64,000 bases of DNA from Phycisphaeraceae bacterium (GTDB lineage: Bacteria > Planctomycetota > Phycisphaerae > Phycisphaerales > UBA1924). The translations under genes were made by a program, and so were the position numbers. The notes beneath the pieces are model-generated. The model searched no databases, was not told the origin of the DNA, and was given only the letters and a program-made list of their open reading frames with translations. How positions within the stretch are numbered: the stretch's first letter is position 1; each line of letters opens with the position of its first letter. The DNA lies in the NCBI GenBank assembly GCA_019636495.1, contig JAHBXL010000006.1, positions 62,001 to 126,000 on the forward strand, written 5' to 3'. Of this stretch, positions 30,364 through 38,889 are shown one piece after another.

Positions 30364-31552
30364 GAGATCTGGAATCTCTGAACAATCGCGCAACCGCGGC
30401 GTGTGAATGATCGTATCGGAAGCGGGCCGTTGGCGGGAGAGCCGATGGCCGCACGGAGACGCGATCATGGGTGTCCGGAAGAACGAGTCGATGGGGTTTG
30501 TGGATGCGGCGCTCGACGGCCTGGGCGGAACACGGTCGGCCACGCTGCTGGAGCGGCTCGACGCGGCCACGCCGTGGGAGCGGCTCGCGGCCCCGATCCG
30601 GGCCCTGCCCGAGTACAACGCGCCCGGAGCCGGTCATCCGTCGTGGTGCCCGGTCCTGATGCTCAAGTGCCTGATGCTGGCCAAGTGGAACAACCTGAGC
30701 GATCCCGGGCTGGAGGATGCGCTCAAGGACCGGATCAGTTTCCGGAAGTTCGTGGGACTCTCGTTCACCGACAAGACGCCCGACGAGACCACGTTCGTGA
30801 AGTTCCGCAAGCGGCTGCGCGAGGCCGGGCTGCACGACACGCTCTTTGACGCGGTGGTGAAGCACATCGAGAAGCAGGGGTTGCTGGTACGTGAGGGGAC
30901 GATGGTGGATGCGACGATCATCGAGGCCCCGCGTGGCCGGCCGCGGCCGGATGGCACGACCACACGCGACCAGGACGCCTCGTTCACCAGCAAGCACGGG
31001 ACGCCGCACCACGGGTACAAGGGCCACATCGCCGCGGACCTCTCCGGGATCGTCACCGACTACCGCTTCGGCACCGCCAAGGAACACGACTCCAACCACA
31101 TCGACGACCTGACCAGGAACGAGCAGAAGCTGGTGCTGGCCGACAGCGCCTACTCCTGCGCTGCGCGGCGTGCCGAACTGCGGGCCCGCGGCGTGATCGA
31201 CGGCATCTGCTACAAGCGGGTGCGTGGGCAGGCCAGGCTGTATGACTGGCAGGAGCGGTGGAACGCCATCGTGGCACGCGATCGGGCCAGGGTCGAGCAT
31301 CCCAACGCGATGATGAAGCAGCAACTGGGGTTCAGACGGGTGAGATACAGAGGAAGAGACCGCAACGCCTTCGACTTCGCCATGATCCTCATCGCCTGCA
31401 ACATCAAGAGAAGCCTCAGTCTGAAAACCGCGGCCTGAGCCGCGGAGATCCACGTCGCACCGATGGATTCGCTCATCGGACGCGACGCCGGTCACCGATG
31501 CCGGCCCGTCCTCTCGAAGTGCAAGTGCCATTGGTCAGAGGTTCCATCTGTC
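30364..31552 (+). mobile_element. IS5-family insertion sequence, ~1.19 kb
   Basis: Imperfect terminal inverted repeats bound the element. The left end 30364-30392 begins GAGATCTGGAATCTCTGAAC. The reverse complement of the right end 31552-31524 begins GACAGATGGAACCTCTGACC. They agree at about 21 of 29 positions. A single transposase gene fills most of the interior. No clean target duplication is evident, so insertion is probably old or the boundaries are off by a few bases. It sits upstream of the sigma/kinase operon on one side and at the 5' edge of a secreted-protein/HTH operon on the other. Confidence 0.7.
30467..31438 (+). CDS. IS5-type DDE transposase
   Basis: A 323-residue transposase from ATG 30467. 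It carries the IS5-group N-terminal pattern (FVGLSFTDKTPDETTFVKFR, LREAGLHDTLFDAVVKHIEK). The catalytic acids fall in GTMVDATIIEAP (first Asp), KLVLADSAYSC (second Asp) and RARVEHPNAMMKQQLGFRRV (Glu). HHGYKGHIAADLSGIV is the typical strand between them. The frame is intact and full length, so the protein may be active. C-terminus AFDFAMILIACNIKRSL is standard. Confidence 0.92.
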   Translation: MGVRKNESMGFVDAALDGLGGTRSATLLERLDAATPWERLAAPIRALPEYNAPGAGHPSWCPVLMLKCLMLAKWNNLSDPGLEDALKDRISFRKFVGLSFTDKTPDETTFVKFRKRLREAGLHDTLFDAVVKHIEKQGLLVREGTMVDATIIEAPRGRPRPDGTTTRDQDASFTSKHGTPHHGYKGHIAADLSGIVTDYRFGTAKEHDSNHIDDLTRNEQKLVLADSAYSCAARRAELRARGVIDGICYKRVRGQARLYDWQERWNAIVARDRARVEHPNAMMKQQLGFRRVRYRGRDRNAFDFAMILIACNIKRSLSLKTAA

Positions 31553-32673: not shown

Positions 32674-33573
32674 ATGCGGGAGAACCAACTGCTCGCGCAC
32701 ATTCATGCACGCTCGGCGGACCTCGTCGCGGCGTTTGGCGAGGTCGTTGTCGGACCCGGCGACGACTGCGCTGTCGTGCGCGCCGGCACCGGCTCGCTGC
32801 TGCTGCTCACCGTCGATCAACTGGTCGAGGGCCGGCACTTTGCCGCAGACGCCGCCGCGGCGGAAATCGCGCACAAGGCCATCGCCCGGAGCATCTCCGA
32901 TATCGCCGCGATGGGCGGCACGCCCGCCTGGGCGCTGGCGACGGGGCTGCTGCCGCGGCACTACGAGCGCGCCGACGAACTGTTCGACGCGATGTCCGCG
33001 GCAGCGCGCCAGATGGGCGCGCCGCTTGTCGGCGGCGACATCGCCACCTGGGATGGCGCGCTCGCGCTCACGTGTACGGTCGGCGGCGCACCGCACCCTG
33101 CACGTGGCCCCGTGCTGCGCGCCGGTGCCCGCCCGGGCGACGATCTGTGGGTCACGGGACGCATCGGCGGCAGTCTGCGCAGCGGTCGGCACCTGCGCTT
33201 CGTGCCGCGCACGACAATCGGCGCGTGGCTGTGCGATGCGCTCGGCCCCGCCCTGCACGCGATGATCGACATCTCCGACGGCGTCGGGGTCGACTCTGCG
33301 CGCCTCGCCGCCGCATCTGGCATCCGTGCGGTCATCGATCTGCCGCGCATCCCGCTGCATGATGGCGTGGTCGATCCGCTTGCGGCGATCGGCGAAGGCG
33401 AGGACTACGAACTTCTCTTTGCGGTCGCCCCCGGCTCGGCGCTCCCCCCACAAGCGCCCGACGGCACACCGCTGACGCGCATCGGCCGGTGCGCCGAGGG
33501 GTCCGGCTGCATCGCGCTGGATTCGGGCGGGCACGAGCACGACTGCGCACATCGCGGCTGGGAGCATGCCTGA
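32674..33573 (+). CDS. thiL: Thiamine-monophosphate kinase
   Basis: A 299-residue PurM-like kinase that makes thiamine pyrophosphate from thiamine phosphate. The N-terminal VVGPGDDCAVV and LLLTVDQLVEGRHF, the central ARSISDIAAMGGTPAWAL, LVGGDIATWD and GARPGDDLWVTGRIGGS, and MIDISDGVGVDSARLA are the family's ATP and metal-binding strips. EGEDYELLFAV is the usual C-terminal motif. The TGA overlaps the tsaE ATG by one base, the conserved thiL-tsaE neighbourhood. Confidence 0.93.
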   Translation: MRENQLLAHIHARSADLVAAFGEVVVGPGDDCAVVRAGTGSLLLLTVDQLVEGRHFAADAAAAEIAHKAIARSISDIAAMGGTPAWALATGLLPRHYERADELFDAMSAAARQMGAPLVGGDIATWDGALALTCTVGGAPHPARGPVLRAGARPGDDLWVTGRIGGSLRSGRHLRFVPRTTIGAWLCDALGPALHAMIDISDGVGVDSARLAAASGIRAVIDLPRIPLHDGVVDPLAAIGEGEDYELLFAVAPGSALPPQAPDGTPLTRIGRCAEGSGCIALDSGGHEHDCAHRGWEHA

Positions 33574-34343
33574 TGCGTCTGACCGCGCGATCCTGCCACG
33601 AACGACAGACCATCGCGCTCGGCCGCGCGCTCGGAGCCGCGCTCTTCCCCGGCGACGTGGTCGCGCTCGAGGGCGAACTGGGCGCGGGCAAGACTCGCTT
33701 CGTTCGCGGCGTGTGCGAGGGCCTGGGCCTTGATCCCGCGCAGGTCAGCAGCCCGACTTTCGTATTGATGAACGAGTACGCATCGCCCATGGACCATCAA
33801 CGCACGCCGCGGGCCGTGCTGCGACACGTCGACGCCTACCGCCTTCGCGGAACCGACGACCTGGACTCGATGGGGTGGGACTGCGTTTCCGACGGCGCGG
33901 CGGTCGTCGTCGTCGAGTGGGCATCGCGCATCGCTCCCGCGCTGCAGGAGGCCGTGCACCGCGCGGCGCATCACACGATGGAACCTGTGCTCTTCACCGT
34001 GCGGATCGAAACCGAGGGCGCGGCGGACGAGGTGGACGGCCGCGGCACGCGCACACTCACGCTCGATGCGCCCGACGCGGCACAAAGGCGAGCGGGGTGG
34101 GCTCGCATCGCCGAGGCGTGGGCCGCGGCGGGAATTTCTGCGCGGGGCGGCTCGCTACCCGAGGGCTGGGCCCGCTGCCCGACGACCGGCAAGCCCGTCT
34201 CGCCGGACAGCCCCACGTTCCCGTTCATCGACGAGCGGGCGCGCATGGCCGACCTCGGCCGATGGATGAGCGGCCACTACCGCGTCAGCCGCGAGATCAC
34301 GCCCGAAGATGCGGACAAACTCCCGCCGCCCGAGAGCAACTGA
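33573..34343 (+). CDS. tsaE: TsaE (tRNA t6A biosynthesis ATPase) with degenerate YacG-like C-terminal domain
   Basis: TsaE is the ATPase partner of TsaB/TsaD in threonylcarbamoyl-adenosine formation on tRNA. Here residues 1-145 hold Walker A ALEGELGAGKTRFVRG (34-41), SSPTFVLMNEY and LRHVDAYRL, with VVVVEWASRI later. The 256-residue length is ~100 over typical. The extra C-terminal part, ~201-240, reads CPTTGKPVSPDSPTFPFIDE then MADLGRWMSGHYRV. It aligns with YacG (DNA gyrase inhibitor/DUF329) almost throughout, but only the first of the four zinc cysteines (Cys202) remains; Thr205, Ile219 and Ala223 replace the others. Confidence 0.88.
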   Translation: MRLTARSCHERQTIALGRALGAALFPGDVVALEGELGAGKTRFVRGVCEGLGLDPAQVSSPTFVLMNEYASPMDHQRTPRAVLRHVDAYRLRGTDDLDSMGWDCVSDGAAVVVVEWASRIAPALQEAVHRAAHHTMEPVLFTVRIETEGAADEVDGRGTRTLTLDAPDAAQRRAGWARIAEAWAAAGISARGGSLPEGWARCPTTGKPVSPDSPTFPFIDERARMADLGRWMSGHYRVSREITPEDADKLPPPESN

Positions 34344-34385: not shown

Positions 34386-35261
34386 ATGCACGCACCTTTC
34401 ACGGACCCGCGAATGAACCGAGTTCTCCCGATCGTCTCCCGGCGCGCCGCCTGGTCGCGCTTCGTGGTCCTGCTCGCGGTCGCGTGCACGCTGGTCTTGG
34501 CGCTGGCCGGCGGCGCGGCCGTCGCGCAGGGCACGGGCACGCCCGCCGGCGCAGCCGGGCCCGCAGTCACCGAGAGTGGACGCGTCTCGTTGTGGGAGTT
34601 GTTCAGCCAGTCGTTCGACCTGTTCACCGTGCTGCTGGTGATCGGCTCGCTGGCCGGGTGGACGATCATCATCATCTGCATGATCGAGGTGCGCAAGAGC
34701 AACATCGCGCCGGACGAGCCGGCCGAGATCATCTCGGGCCTGTGCCGCGCGGGACGATGGGCCGACCTGAGAGCATTCGTGGCCGAGGATGATGCGCTGG
34801 TCAGCCGCGTCATCCGCGCGGGTCTGGCCGTGCCGACCGACGACAAGGACGCGGTGCGCGAAGCGGCGGAACTTGCCGCGAGCGAAGAGTGCGCTCGCTG
34901 GTTCCGCAAGGTCGAACCGCTGAACGTGATCGGAAACCTCGGCCCGCTGCTGGGGTTGGCGGGCACGGTGTGGGGAATGATCATCGCCTTCGCCGCGCTC
35001 GGGCACGCGGGCGGACAGGCCTCGCCGGCGAACCTGTCGCTGGGCATTTCCAAGGCCCTGTTCCACACGCTCCTGGGCCTGCTGCTGGCCGTGCCGTGCC
35101 TGACGGTCTACGGCTTCTACCGGTCTTTCATCGACAAACTCTGCACGCGGGCGATGGTTGCTTCCAGCGAACTGGTGGAGTTGCTGCCGCGCGAGGCGAG
35201 GCTGCGTCTTGGCGATGCGCCGGCACAGCAGCCGCCGCGCCCGGCTGCTGCGCGATCTTGA
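34386..35261 (+). CDS. MotA/TolQ/ExbB proton-channel family protein
   Basis: A 291-residue membrane protein. A signal-like first helix (~26-48, FVVLLAVACTLVLALAGGAA) is followed by a helix at ~79-101 (LLVIGSLAGWTIIIICMIEV). A cytoplasmic loop comes next. The paired helices carry the conserved NLGPLLGLAGTVWGMIIAF and SLGISKALFHTLLGLLLAVP. In complex with an ExbD/TolR partner, these proteins use proton flow to energise envelope processes. No exbD lies next to it in this window. ATG 34413 (MNRVLPIVS) is an alternative start giving a more standard signal. Confidence 0.85.
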   Translation: MHAPFTDPRMNRVLPIVSRRAAWSRFVVLLAVACTLVLALAGGAAVAQGTGTPAGAAGPAVTESGRVSLWELFSQSFDLFTVLLVIGSLAGWTIIIICMIEVRKSNIAPDEPAEIISGLCRAGRWADLRAFVAEDDALVSRVIRAGLAVPTDDKDAVREAAELAASEECARWFRKVEPLNVIGNLGPLLGLAGTVWGMIIAFAALGHAGGQASPANLSLGISKALFHTLLGLLLAVPCLTVYGFYRSFIDKLCTRAMVASSELVELLPREARLRLGDAPAQQPPRPAAARS

Positions 35262-36030: not shown

Positions 36031-38475
36031 TCATGGCGCTGCCGCGAACCACGCGCCGAGAAAGACGAAGATGTCGGTGACGTCCGGCGTGCCCGATCCG
36101 TCGTAATCGGCGACCTGTCCACCAGCAAACCACGCCGCGAGGAACGCGAACACGTCCGCGACGGTTCGCTGGCCGTCAAGGTCGAAGTCGGCGTGGGGAA
36201 TGCGTGCGAGCGCGGCGAAGGGCATGAGGGTGACGGCACGGTTGGTCGGCGAAGGCTGGCCGACGGGCTCGATGCGCACGGCGAAACGATCGGCCCCCTG
36301 CGCACCACCCGGCCATGGGCTGAGGATCTCGATAGAGATCGTGCCGTCGGCGTCATGGACCGGGGGCGCGATCTGGGCCCGGCCCGCGCTGCCTGGCGCG
36401 TGCGCAACGATCACCGTGCCCGGGATCGCAGGGACGCTCTGCCCCTGCCAATCGCGCAGGCGGATGGTCAGAGTCTGTACGCAGGGCCCCGCCGCGCCCA
36501 GCGGCGCGCGGGGCGTCGAGATCGTCGCGCTCGATTGCTCGGCATCGGGCCTTCCGACCAGCGCGGCCCGCCACGCGTCATACTGGGCCTGCAACTGCAG
36601 GACGGGGTCGGGCGCGGCGGCGGACTGGTTGGCGACGTTGAACGACATGAAATAATCGCCTGCCGCACATCCCACCCCGTTATTATATATGAGTTGTCCG
36701 CCGACATTGGGCACGACCATGCCGAAGTTGCTTCCCTGGATCGGCACGACCGCGTCGAGGTCGCCGTCGCCGTCGACATCAGCCAGGTCCAGCCGCCCCG
36801 GGGTGTTGGGCAGCGCAACCAGCAGCGGCGAGGGCGCGAACGCCCCGCCCCCCAGCCCGCGGAACACCCCCAGCCTGCTCGCCGTGGTCTGCCGCGTCAG
36901 GCCCACGAGGTCCGCGAAACCGTCGCCGTCGGCGTCGCCGATGCCCACGCCGCCCGGCACGGGCCCGAACGCGATCGATTGCGCCGCGAAGTTCGTGCTG
37001 TTGAGGAAGATGATCAGAGCGCCCGTCCCGCCCGATGCGCACGCGATGTCGGGCGCACCGTCGCCATCGAGGTCGCCGATCACCACCTGCCCGACGTTGC
37101 TCCCGCTCCCGACCAGCGGCGGTTCGGCAATCAACGCGGGCGGACCGCCGGGCGGGGAGACGTTCCGCACGATCTGCACACCCTCCGCGAACGCGCCGCC
37201 GAGCACGAGGTCCGCGTCGCCGTCACCGTCGAGGTCGGCCGCGGCGATGGTCACCGGCCCGTCGAGCACGGCCAGGTGTACGCCGGGGGCGAAGGCCCCG
37301 CCGCCGAGGCCGCGGAAGACCGTGAGGGTGTCGTCGTTGAAGTTGCACGCGGCGATGTCGGCGTGACCATCGCCGTCGAAGTCCGCGGCGACGACGCCGT
37401 AGGTCCCGGCACCGGCGGCGAGGTGCACCGCCGCGCCGAACTGGCCCGTGGGTTGCCCGTTGGCATCGGTCAGACCGGGCAGAACCGAGACGCGGTTGAG
37501 CGCCTGCACGGCGATGAGCAGGTCGGGCGCGCCGTTGCCGGTCACGTCGCGCACGAAGACGTCGCGCGGCGCGGTGAATCCCGCGCCGTGCACGGGCGCG
37601 GCGAACGCCCCCTGGCCCGGCGCGGTGCTGATGTTCGAGAGCAGCGAGAAACTCGACGATGCGCTGTTGACGCCGATCAGTTCCGGGAAGCCGTCGGCGT
37701 TCAGGTCCGCCGCGATCAGCCGGACGGGCGTGGTCTGCATGCGGTAGACCTGGTTGCACCCGTCGCGGTCGCCGGTGCGGGCGATGAGCATGTAGGCGAT
37801 GTGCGCCGACTTGGCGAAACTCGGCGGCGGCGCGCCGCACGCCGTTGGCGCGCCCGAGGAACACGAGCAACGGCCATCGCCGCCCATCGCCCGCGCGGCC
37901 TCCATCGCGGCCATGAGTCTGCACGCAAGGTCGCCCGGGGTGTTGATGACCGCAGCCTCCGCCGCGGCCACGACCGGCTCCCCCGTCAGCACGTTGCCCT
38001 GGATCGCGTACACGATGTCGGCGCCCAGATGCCCGGAGGCGAGGATGCGCCCGGTGCGTCCGCCCGCCCACGCGCCCGCGCCGGTCCCGGTGAACGTGCC
38101 GCAGCGCCCGTTCTCGTGCGTGTCGCACAAGCCGTACTGGCGCGTCTGGTGGCCGGTGTCAAAGGCCGGGAGCGCGGCGAGAATGGCGGCCGGGGACCAC
38201 CCCGCCGCGAGGCGGTCGCGGATGAACGTGCGGTTGTATCCCCCTGCATCGACGAACGACTGTGCGGTCGCCCCGCCAACGCCGGTGATGAGCACCGGCG
38301 TGTTGGCCTGCAGGTCGAAGTTGGTCAGGCACGTGGCCGAGCCCAGCGCGACCTCGCCGGTGCGGGTGTTGATGAGGATGATCGACCAGGTGGCGCGGGC
38401 CTGCGCTGCCGCGGCGAGCAGAAAGAGGGTCGCCGCACACATGATGATCACAAGTCTGAACACGCTTGGAGTCAT
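36031..38475 (-). CDS. Exported DUF1028 protein with FG-GAP/VCBS repeats and dockerin-like C-terminus
   Basis: An 814-residue protein. A signal peptide (~1-28, MTPSVFRLVIIMCAATLFLL) leads to a DUF1028 region (ATWSIILINTRTGEVALGSA, through GHLGADIVYAIQGNVL and the EAARAMGGDGRCSCSS loop). About 370 residues of FG-GAP/VCBS-type repeats follow, marked by recurring calcium-loop signatures: DLNADGFPELIG, DFDGDGHADIAA, DLDGDGDADLVL, DLDGDGAPDIAC and DVDGDGDLDAVV. A short beta domain comes next. The last ~50 residues (DFDLDGQRTVADVFAFLAAW, DYDGSGTPDVTDIFVFLGAW) are two EF-like dockerin-type loops. It probably forms a calcium-stabilised beta-propeller on the cell surface. No enzymatic role is established for DUF1028. 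Confidence 0.82.
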   Translation of the reverse strand: MTPSVFRLVIIMCAATLFLLAAAAQARATWSIILINTRTGEVALGSATCLTNFDLQANTPVLITGVGGATAQSFVDAGGYNRTFIRDRLAAGWSPAAILAALPAFDTGHQTRQYGLCDTHENGRCGTFTGTGAGAWAGGRTGRILASGHLGADIVYAIQGNVLTGEPVVAAAEAAVINTPGDLACRLMAAMEAARAMGGDGRCSCSSGAPTACGAPPPSFAKSAHIAYMLIARTGDRDGCNQVYRMQTTPVRLIAADLNADGFPELIGVNSASSSFSLLSNISTAPGQGAFAAPVHGAGFTAPRDVFVRDVTGNGAPDLLIAVQALNRVSVLPGLTDANGQPTGQFGAAVHLAAGAGTYGVVAADFDGDGHADIAACNFNDDTLTVFRGLGGGAFAPGVHLAVLDGPVTIAAADLDGDGDADLVLGGAFAEGVQIVRNVSPPGGPPALIAEPPLVGSGSNVGQVVIGDLDGDGAPDIACASGGTGALIIFLNSTNFAAQSIAFGPVPGGVGIGDADGDGFADLVGLTRQTTASRLGVFRGLGGGAFAPSPLLVALPNTPGRLDLADVDGDGDLDAVVPIQGSNFGMVVPNVGGQLIYNNGVGCAAGDYFMSFNVANQSAAAPDPVLQLQAQYDAWRAALVGRPDAEQSSATISTPRAPLGAAGPCVQTLTIRLRDWQGQSVPAIPGTVIVAHAPGSAGRAQIAPPVHDADGTISIEILSPWPGGAQGADRFAVRIEPVGQPSPTNRAVTLMPFAALARIPHADFDLDGQRTVADVFAFLAAWFAGGQVADYDGSGTPDVTDIFVFLGAWFAAAP

Positions 38476-38889
38476 GAACAGAGTCTTGCACATGAATGGC
38501 GGAAAGCCCAGCATCTGACTTGGGCCGCGGGAAGTGGCAGAAGGTGCCCAATCGTCCGAGAAGCGTCTTGTGCAATCGGGGGTCAGTCTCCGGCGCGCCC
38601 CCCCGATGCGGATGCCGAACCGGCCGAGTCACTGTGTCTTTCGCGGCACGTGGGCCGCGGCGCGTGACCACCGGGGCGAGCCCAAAGGCTCGGCATGGCC
38701 CTCCCGGATTCCGTGAGATTGGCGAATCCTGGCCAGCCGCGTCAGTACGAGGCCTTGTTGAAGGTCCGCGCGAGGTTCACTATCCTCTGCGTCCCTGTGG
38801 GGCCGGCCGCGGCGAGCGGCCCGGTCCCCTGCTGTTCCGCGTTGTGTTCCTCGCCCGAGTCTTCCCGCCGCGCGTTGGAGTCTGCCACC
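38476..38889. other. Divergent intergenic region upstream of nuoJ
   Basis: About 415 bases between the DUF1028 gene and nuoJ. It contains the nuoJ promoter candidate (38758-38786). An open frame from ATG 38695 runs into nuoJ, but its first 65 residues do not resemble NuoJ, so it is treated as leader. No nuoA-nuoI sequence is present here. Confidence 0.55.
38758..38786 (+). promoter_or_regulatory. Candidate sigma-70 promoter for nuoJKLMN
   Basis: TTGAAG (38758-38763), a 17-base spacer and TATCCT (38781-38786), about 100 bases before the proposed nuoJ start. This would let the membrane-arm genes be transcribed without the rest of the complex I genes. Assigned by eye. Confidence 0.5.

Follow-up and report, generated by a model that had tools for sequence, protein, structure and literature searches.

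The tsaE gene of the window (the whole stretch of DNA analysed, 64,000 nucleotides in length) encodes a protein in which the ATPase is followed by a domain resembling YacG, and this domain has lost most of its zinc ligands. The locus raises the question of whether the zinc-less domain is a decaying relic or a working part and, if it works, what it does on TsaE. TsaE works on TsaBD as a switch driven by ATP (PMC9654439). YacG of E. coli is a gyrase inhibitor whose zinc finger touches GyrB through an inserted Trp residue and whose C-terminal part obstructs the DNA site (PMC10886550). Both protein families are already known, and a literature search on TsaE together with YacG found no relevant report; what is new here is the zinc-less YacG variant within a TsaE fusion.

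The features of the locus are listed in Table 1. The TsaE part of the protein matches the Pfam model PF02367 with 110.3 bits (cut-off 26.6, E 8e-32) and the TIGR00150 equivalog with a score of 76.1 (cut-off 60.1). The Walker A, HVDAYR and EW motifs are present, and the ATPase core is intact, as had been read from the letters alone. The motif residues Gly37, Gly39, Lys40, Thr41, His85, Asp87, Arg90, Glu115 and Trp116 are invariant across all 83 TsaE–YacG fusions of the order described below. The C-terminal domain matches the Pfam YacG model with 35.1 bits (cut-off 25.5, E 1.1e-8), in agreement with the homology along its whole length claimed by the sequence-only reading. The NCBIfam YacG models also match the protein (E 2.3e-7), but under their curated equivalog cut-offs, and a phmmer search against PDB gave a weak match to E. 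coli YacG (1lv3 and 4tma, E 0.007–0.008). At the four ligand positions of the CxxC...CxxxC zinc site, the domain has Cys202, Thr205, Ile219 and Ala223; as the same reading had stated, Cys202 is the only ligand left. The genome is 96% complete, and whole-genome searches identified this fusion as its sole TsaE and its sole above-cut-off YacG; a second, four-Cys YacG was not found elsewhere in the genome.

Table 1. Features of the tsaE-yacG locus, in window coordinates
Feature	Position	Strand	Remarks
thiL-like gene (AIRS domains), upstream	32674..33573	+	one-base overlap with tsaE start
tsaE-yacG fusion gene	33573..34343	+	256 aa; ORF translation and domain search
TsaE ATPase domain, residues 10-128	33600..33956	+	Walker A GELGAGKT (34-41), HVDAYR (85-90), EW (115-116), all intact
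Linker, residues 129-200	33957..34172	+	between TsaE and YacG domains
YacG domain, residues 201-248, zinc-less (C-minus) form	34173..34316	+	Pfam PF03884
Cys202, only retained zinc-ligand position	34176..34178	+	
Thr205, second ligand position	34185..34187	+	
Ile219, third ligand position	34227..34229	+	
Ala223, fourth ligand position	34239..34241	+	
Trp231, counterpart of E. coli YacG residue 40, GyrB-contacting side chain	34263..34265	+	
MotA/TolQ/ExbB-family gene, downstream	34386..35261	+	neighbour only

Two further genes were noted in the surroundings. A transposase with DUF772 and DDE_Tnp_1 domains lies a short distance upstream (30407–31438, + strand), and positions 36031–38514 of the − strand encode an 827-residue protein in which FG-GAP repeats follow a DUF1028 domain.

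To place the fusion in its lineage, TsaE and YacG were sought in 151 genomes of the window's order, and the gene pairs were read from the DNA. Among the 146 genomes whose TsaE was read, yacG is fused behind tsaE in 83, is a separate neighbour in 42, lies elsewhere on the same contig in one and was not found in 20. The zinc cysteines are kept in 48 of the 83 fusions; the other 35 are zinc-less, all belong to the window's family (f1), and share the motif CPx[T/S]...PF with the first Cys only. All the separate yacG copies of the survey have zinc cysteines, with the domain match starting just past the first Cys in two copies of family f6. Taken together, the survey of TsaE C-termini bears out a domain fusion with loss of zinc ligands, and the recurrence of the same three losses in 35 genomes of one family is, on the aligned sequences, beyond chance. 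The fusion is common in the order with its zinc site intact; therefore, it did not require zinc loss.

Within the window's family, each genome has one YacG match, except for a weak extra fragment in G095. The genomes that have TsaE but no YacG are G027 and 19 members of family f2. Of the 42 f2 genomes read, these 19 (for example L048, L050, L052 and L053) have no detectable YacG, and the other 23 carry a four-Cys fusion; the YacG domain seems to have been lost repeatedly in this family. Across 392 genomes from the whole phylum, YacG usually stands alone as a short gene, and TsaE beside YacG was detected at none of the 35 loci read, which were the best-scoring loci and five long frames. At L255, L256, L257, L258 and L259, from other parts of the phylum, YacG ends long open reading frames of 302–948 residues that contain no other Pfam domain, and the partner is not TsaE. 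We also considered whether zinc was lost independently in other parts of the phylum, and rejected this: of nine genomes with low scores read outside the family, seven retain the zinc cysteines, and the two others yielded only fragments too short to judge. A search of named organisms with the fusion protein gave a sole match, one free-standing four-Cys YacG of another lineage.

The order of events was analyzed on a GyrB tree of 59 genomes. The tree divides family f1 into a nine-genome clade, in which yacG is a separate four-Cys gene (G027 has none), and a 37-genome clade, in which all members are fused (support 100/100). In the fused clade, 35 of the 37 genomes are zinc-less; the remaining two, G036 and G137, have four-Cys domains (L037:1486–2196 and L102:1141–1842, respectively), and are sisters (99/93) within a six-genome subclade that also contains the window's genome. 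The zinc-less state is therefore not strictly needed. A single clean loss of zinc was rejected on this tree, since grouping the 35 zinc-less genomes as one clade gave an AU p of 0.0003. Consequently, either parallel losses reached the same outcome, or one loss was followed by a return of the four-Cys form. We prefer one loss followed by replacement of the domain in the G036/G137 ancestor, because the substitutions are so uniform (Thr or Ser at the second position, Ala or Glu at the fourth). The closest YacG domains to those of G036 and G137 are in family f2, a weak signal from 45 columns, suggesting a replaced domain. The TsaE tree (123 columns) did not resolve the branching.

The sequence-only reading would have counted a free zinc-binding YacG in close relatives, next to a normal TsaE with unrelated tails, as evidence against itself. 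Close relatives do have a free YacG with the zinc cysteines: in eight family genomes, all of the sister clade, a separate four-Cys yacG adjoins tsaE. We do not take it as a refutation; these free genes, often overlapping the end of tsaE, are a likely source of the fusion. In five of the eight pairs, a start of yacG and the stop of tsaE share four bases, so that one frame change could join or split both genes. We suppose that a frame change joined overlapping, coupled genes; alternatively, the sister clade broke up an original fusion into such pairs.

The zinc-less domains show clear signs of constraint. In all 35, the first Cys, the PF and DL pairs and the Trp are 100% kept. The second ligand position is Thr in 91% and Ser in 9%, and the fourth is Ala in 94% and Glu in 6%; the third drifts between Ala (57%), Ser, Ile and Val. 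In 11 near pairs, dN/dS was 0.06–0.32 for the YacG domain and 0.09–0.37 for the TsaE core; these are Nei–Gojobori counts, silent sites approach saturation in some of the pairs, and the majority of pairs are from a single genus and not independent. In 10 of the 11 pairs, the value of the YacG domain does not exceed that of the TsaE core, and in 10 of the 11 the linker exceeds the YacG domain. The linker, which is 30–78 residues long between the domain matches of the zinc-less fusions, is under weaker constraint than either domain. A decaying relic is ruled out by the invariant columns and the low dN/dS. With constraint about as strong as on the enzyme, the zinc-less domain looks, from these substitution patterns, like a working part that is in use.

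The predicted structures point in the same direction. AlphaFold2 modelled the full protein with a mean pLDDT of 90 and a pTM of 0.75; the YacG part reached 91–98, and a low-confidence stretch lies ahead of it at about residues 189–192. The YacG domain alone gave a pLDDT of 89. In a Foldseek search of PDB, the domain model matched E. coli YacG in all four top places, three times as a chain of the gyrase complex (4tma_K, 4tma_I and 4tma_J, probability 1.00, rmsd 2.4–2.5, E 0.013–0.1 for this short chain). The whole-protein model matched TsaE only; aminotransferases ranked under TsaE were dismissed as noise. The zinc-less domain is thus predicted to keep the YacG fold, a retention partly suggested by the four-Cys relatives that the AlphaFold2 alignments held.

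How such a domain could fold without metal is hinted at by ribosomal proteins, for which zinc (C+) and zinc-free (C−) forms, S14 included, are established according to PMC3087516, citing Makarova et al. In all 30 genomes read, S14 carries C[EQ][LI][TS]GR; its first Cys is kept and its second is replaced by Thr (rarely Ser) followed by Gly. The zinc-less YacG shares this CxxTG arrangement, and this analogy is our best hint that Cys202 has a structural role. As in C-minus zinc-ribbon proteins, by analogy and not by homology, the ligands are gone and the rest of the YacG domain is still constrained. In place of the zinc site there would be a small packed core of Cys, Thr, Ala/Ser/Ile and Ala, as in zinc-free S14, allowing metal-free folding. 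Zinc economy was rejected as the sole cause, since C-minus S14 occurs alike in genomes with zinc and with zinc-less YacG and does not discriminate between them. Ribosomal L36 is zinc-free in G001, G062, G040, G122 and G107 (L260, L261, L265, L268 and L272, match at 1501), and of zinc type in the other family genomes read. These are five of 19 genomes with zinc-less YacG versus none of 11 others; the losses are confined to two clades next to each other, and give weak support to a general drift away from zinc in the lineage.

In E. coli, YacG residue 40 contacts a pocket formed partly by Phe513 of GyrB (PMC5507300, where the residue is printed as F40); by count on the chain, position 40 is Trp. 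Its equivalent here, Trp231, is invariant in all aligned YacG domains. All 59 GyrB sequences have Phe513, including that of G027; as this genome has no YacG, the residue is compatible with a YacG–GyrB interaction but no proof of it. The Trp and the PF pair may also be kept for folding alone. With modest confidence, we consider it more likely that TsaE carries a domain for docking on gyrase than one for docking in the t6A complex.

These data establish the homology, the sole copy, the fixation in the clade, the purifying selection and, in the predictions, the retention of the YacG fold. In the explanation that we consider best, for which we would give an even chance, the TsaE ATPase carries the cell's only YacG as a zinc-less, C-minus C-terminal domain that docks independently of zinc and in cis, probably still on gyrase. 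With less certainty than metal-free folding, the YacG role would be kept through docking of the invariant Trp on GyrB, and this docking might now be permanently in cis to TsaE, at a 1:1 ratio. The stronger proposal, that the domain is a live gyrase-binding module and each TsaE of the clade also a gyrase regulator, is tentative and less likely than not; if true, it would physically link the ATP-driven t6A cycle to DNA supercoiling.

The sequence-only reading had instead proposed that the domain was perhaps repurposed for protein docking in the t6A complex. Spelled out, having left gyrase, the domain would serve a structural or regulatory role in t6A synthesis by contacting TsaB/TsaD, tRNA or the nucleotide site of TsaE. 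The domain does sit in cis to the sole TsaE, and the two have stayed together throughout the clade under purifying selection. However, the fully conserved gyrase-contact Trp fits gyrase at least equally well; the long linker, the low-confidence stretch ahead of the domain and the pTM give no hint of a fixed place on TsaE; and the TsaE of the sister clade and of the 20 YacG-less genomes manages without YacG in cis. We regard this role as unlikely. A neutral outcome is similarly improbable, in which a frameshift fixed the fusion of overlapping genes, zinc was lost in a zinc-economising lineage, and the domain merely stabilises the TsaE C-terminus. The spread of the fusion through the order without zinc loss agrees with it, and zinc sites do disappear in the lineage, as S14 and L36 illustrate. 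But the L36 losses, confined to neighbouring clades, are no independent support; G027 and the 19 f2 genomes have a TsaE without YacG; and the invariant residues, with dN/dS as low as that of the catalytic core, suggest a binding function. Finally, Cys202 might be a redox or regulatory thiol, with CPxT as a monothiol motif and the fusion sensing redox state, and it is the sole conserved cysteine in 35 of 35 proteins; this is very improbable, since these proteins have no conserved partner thiol, and C-minus S14 retains the same first Cys, so that a structural reason suffices.

The zinc-less fusion matters for several reasons. YacG is known as a zinc finger and touches gyrase with this very part, and a clade without the metal ligands but with the rest kept is a natural test of the purpose of zinc in YacG. 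The recurrent coupling and fusion of tsaE and yacG raise the question of a connection between t6A synthesis and the control of gyrase, and the CxxTG match with C-minus S14 suggests a general route from a zinc knuckle to a metal-free form.

Compared to E. coli YacG, the zinc-binding DNA gyrase inhibitor (PF03884; PDB 1LV3 and 4TMA), the domain has full-length homology, the same predicted fold and the invariant PF, DL and Trp in common; different from it, three of the four zinc ligands are replaced, and a free 65-residue protein has become the C-terminal domain of TsaE. With TsaE (YjeE/YdiB), the t6A-synthesis ATPase (PF02367; PDB 6N9A and 5NP9), the protein shares the complete P-loop core, the conserved motifs and the status of sole copy, whereas the linker and YacG domain behind the core are additional. 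The four-Cys TsaE–YacG fusions in 48 genomes of the order, from other families as well, have the same domain order, but their zinc site is complete. Like C-minus ribosomal proteins, above all S14, the zinc-less YacG is a conserved protein that lost its ligands, kept the first Cys and replaced the second by Thr before Gly; unlike S14, which is of a different family, it has no four-Cys paralogue in the genome, and its loss sits in a fused domain.
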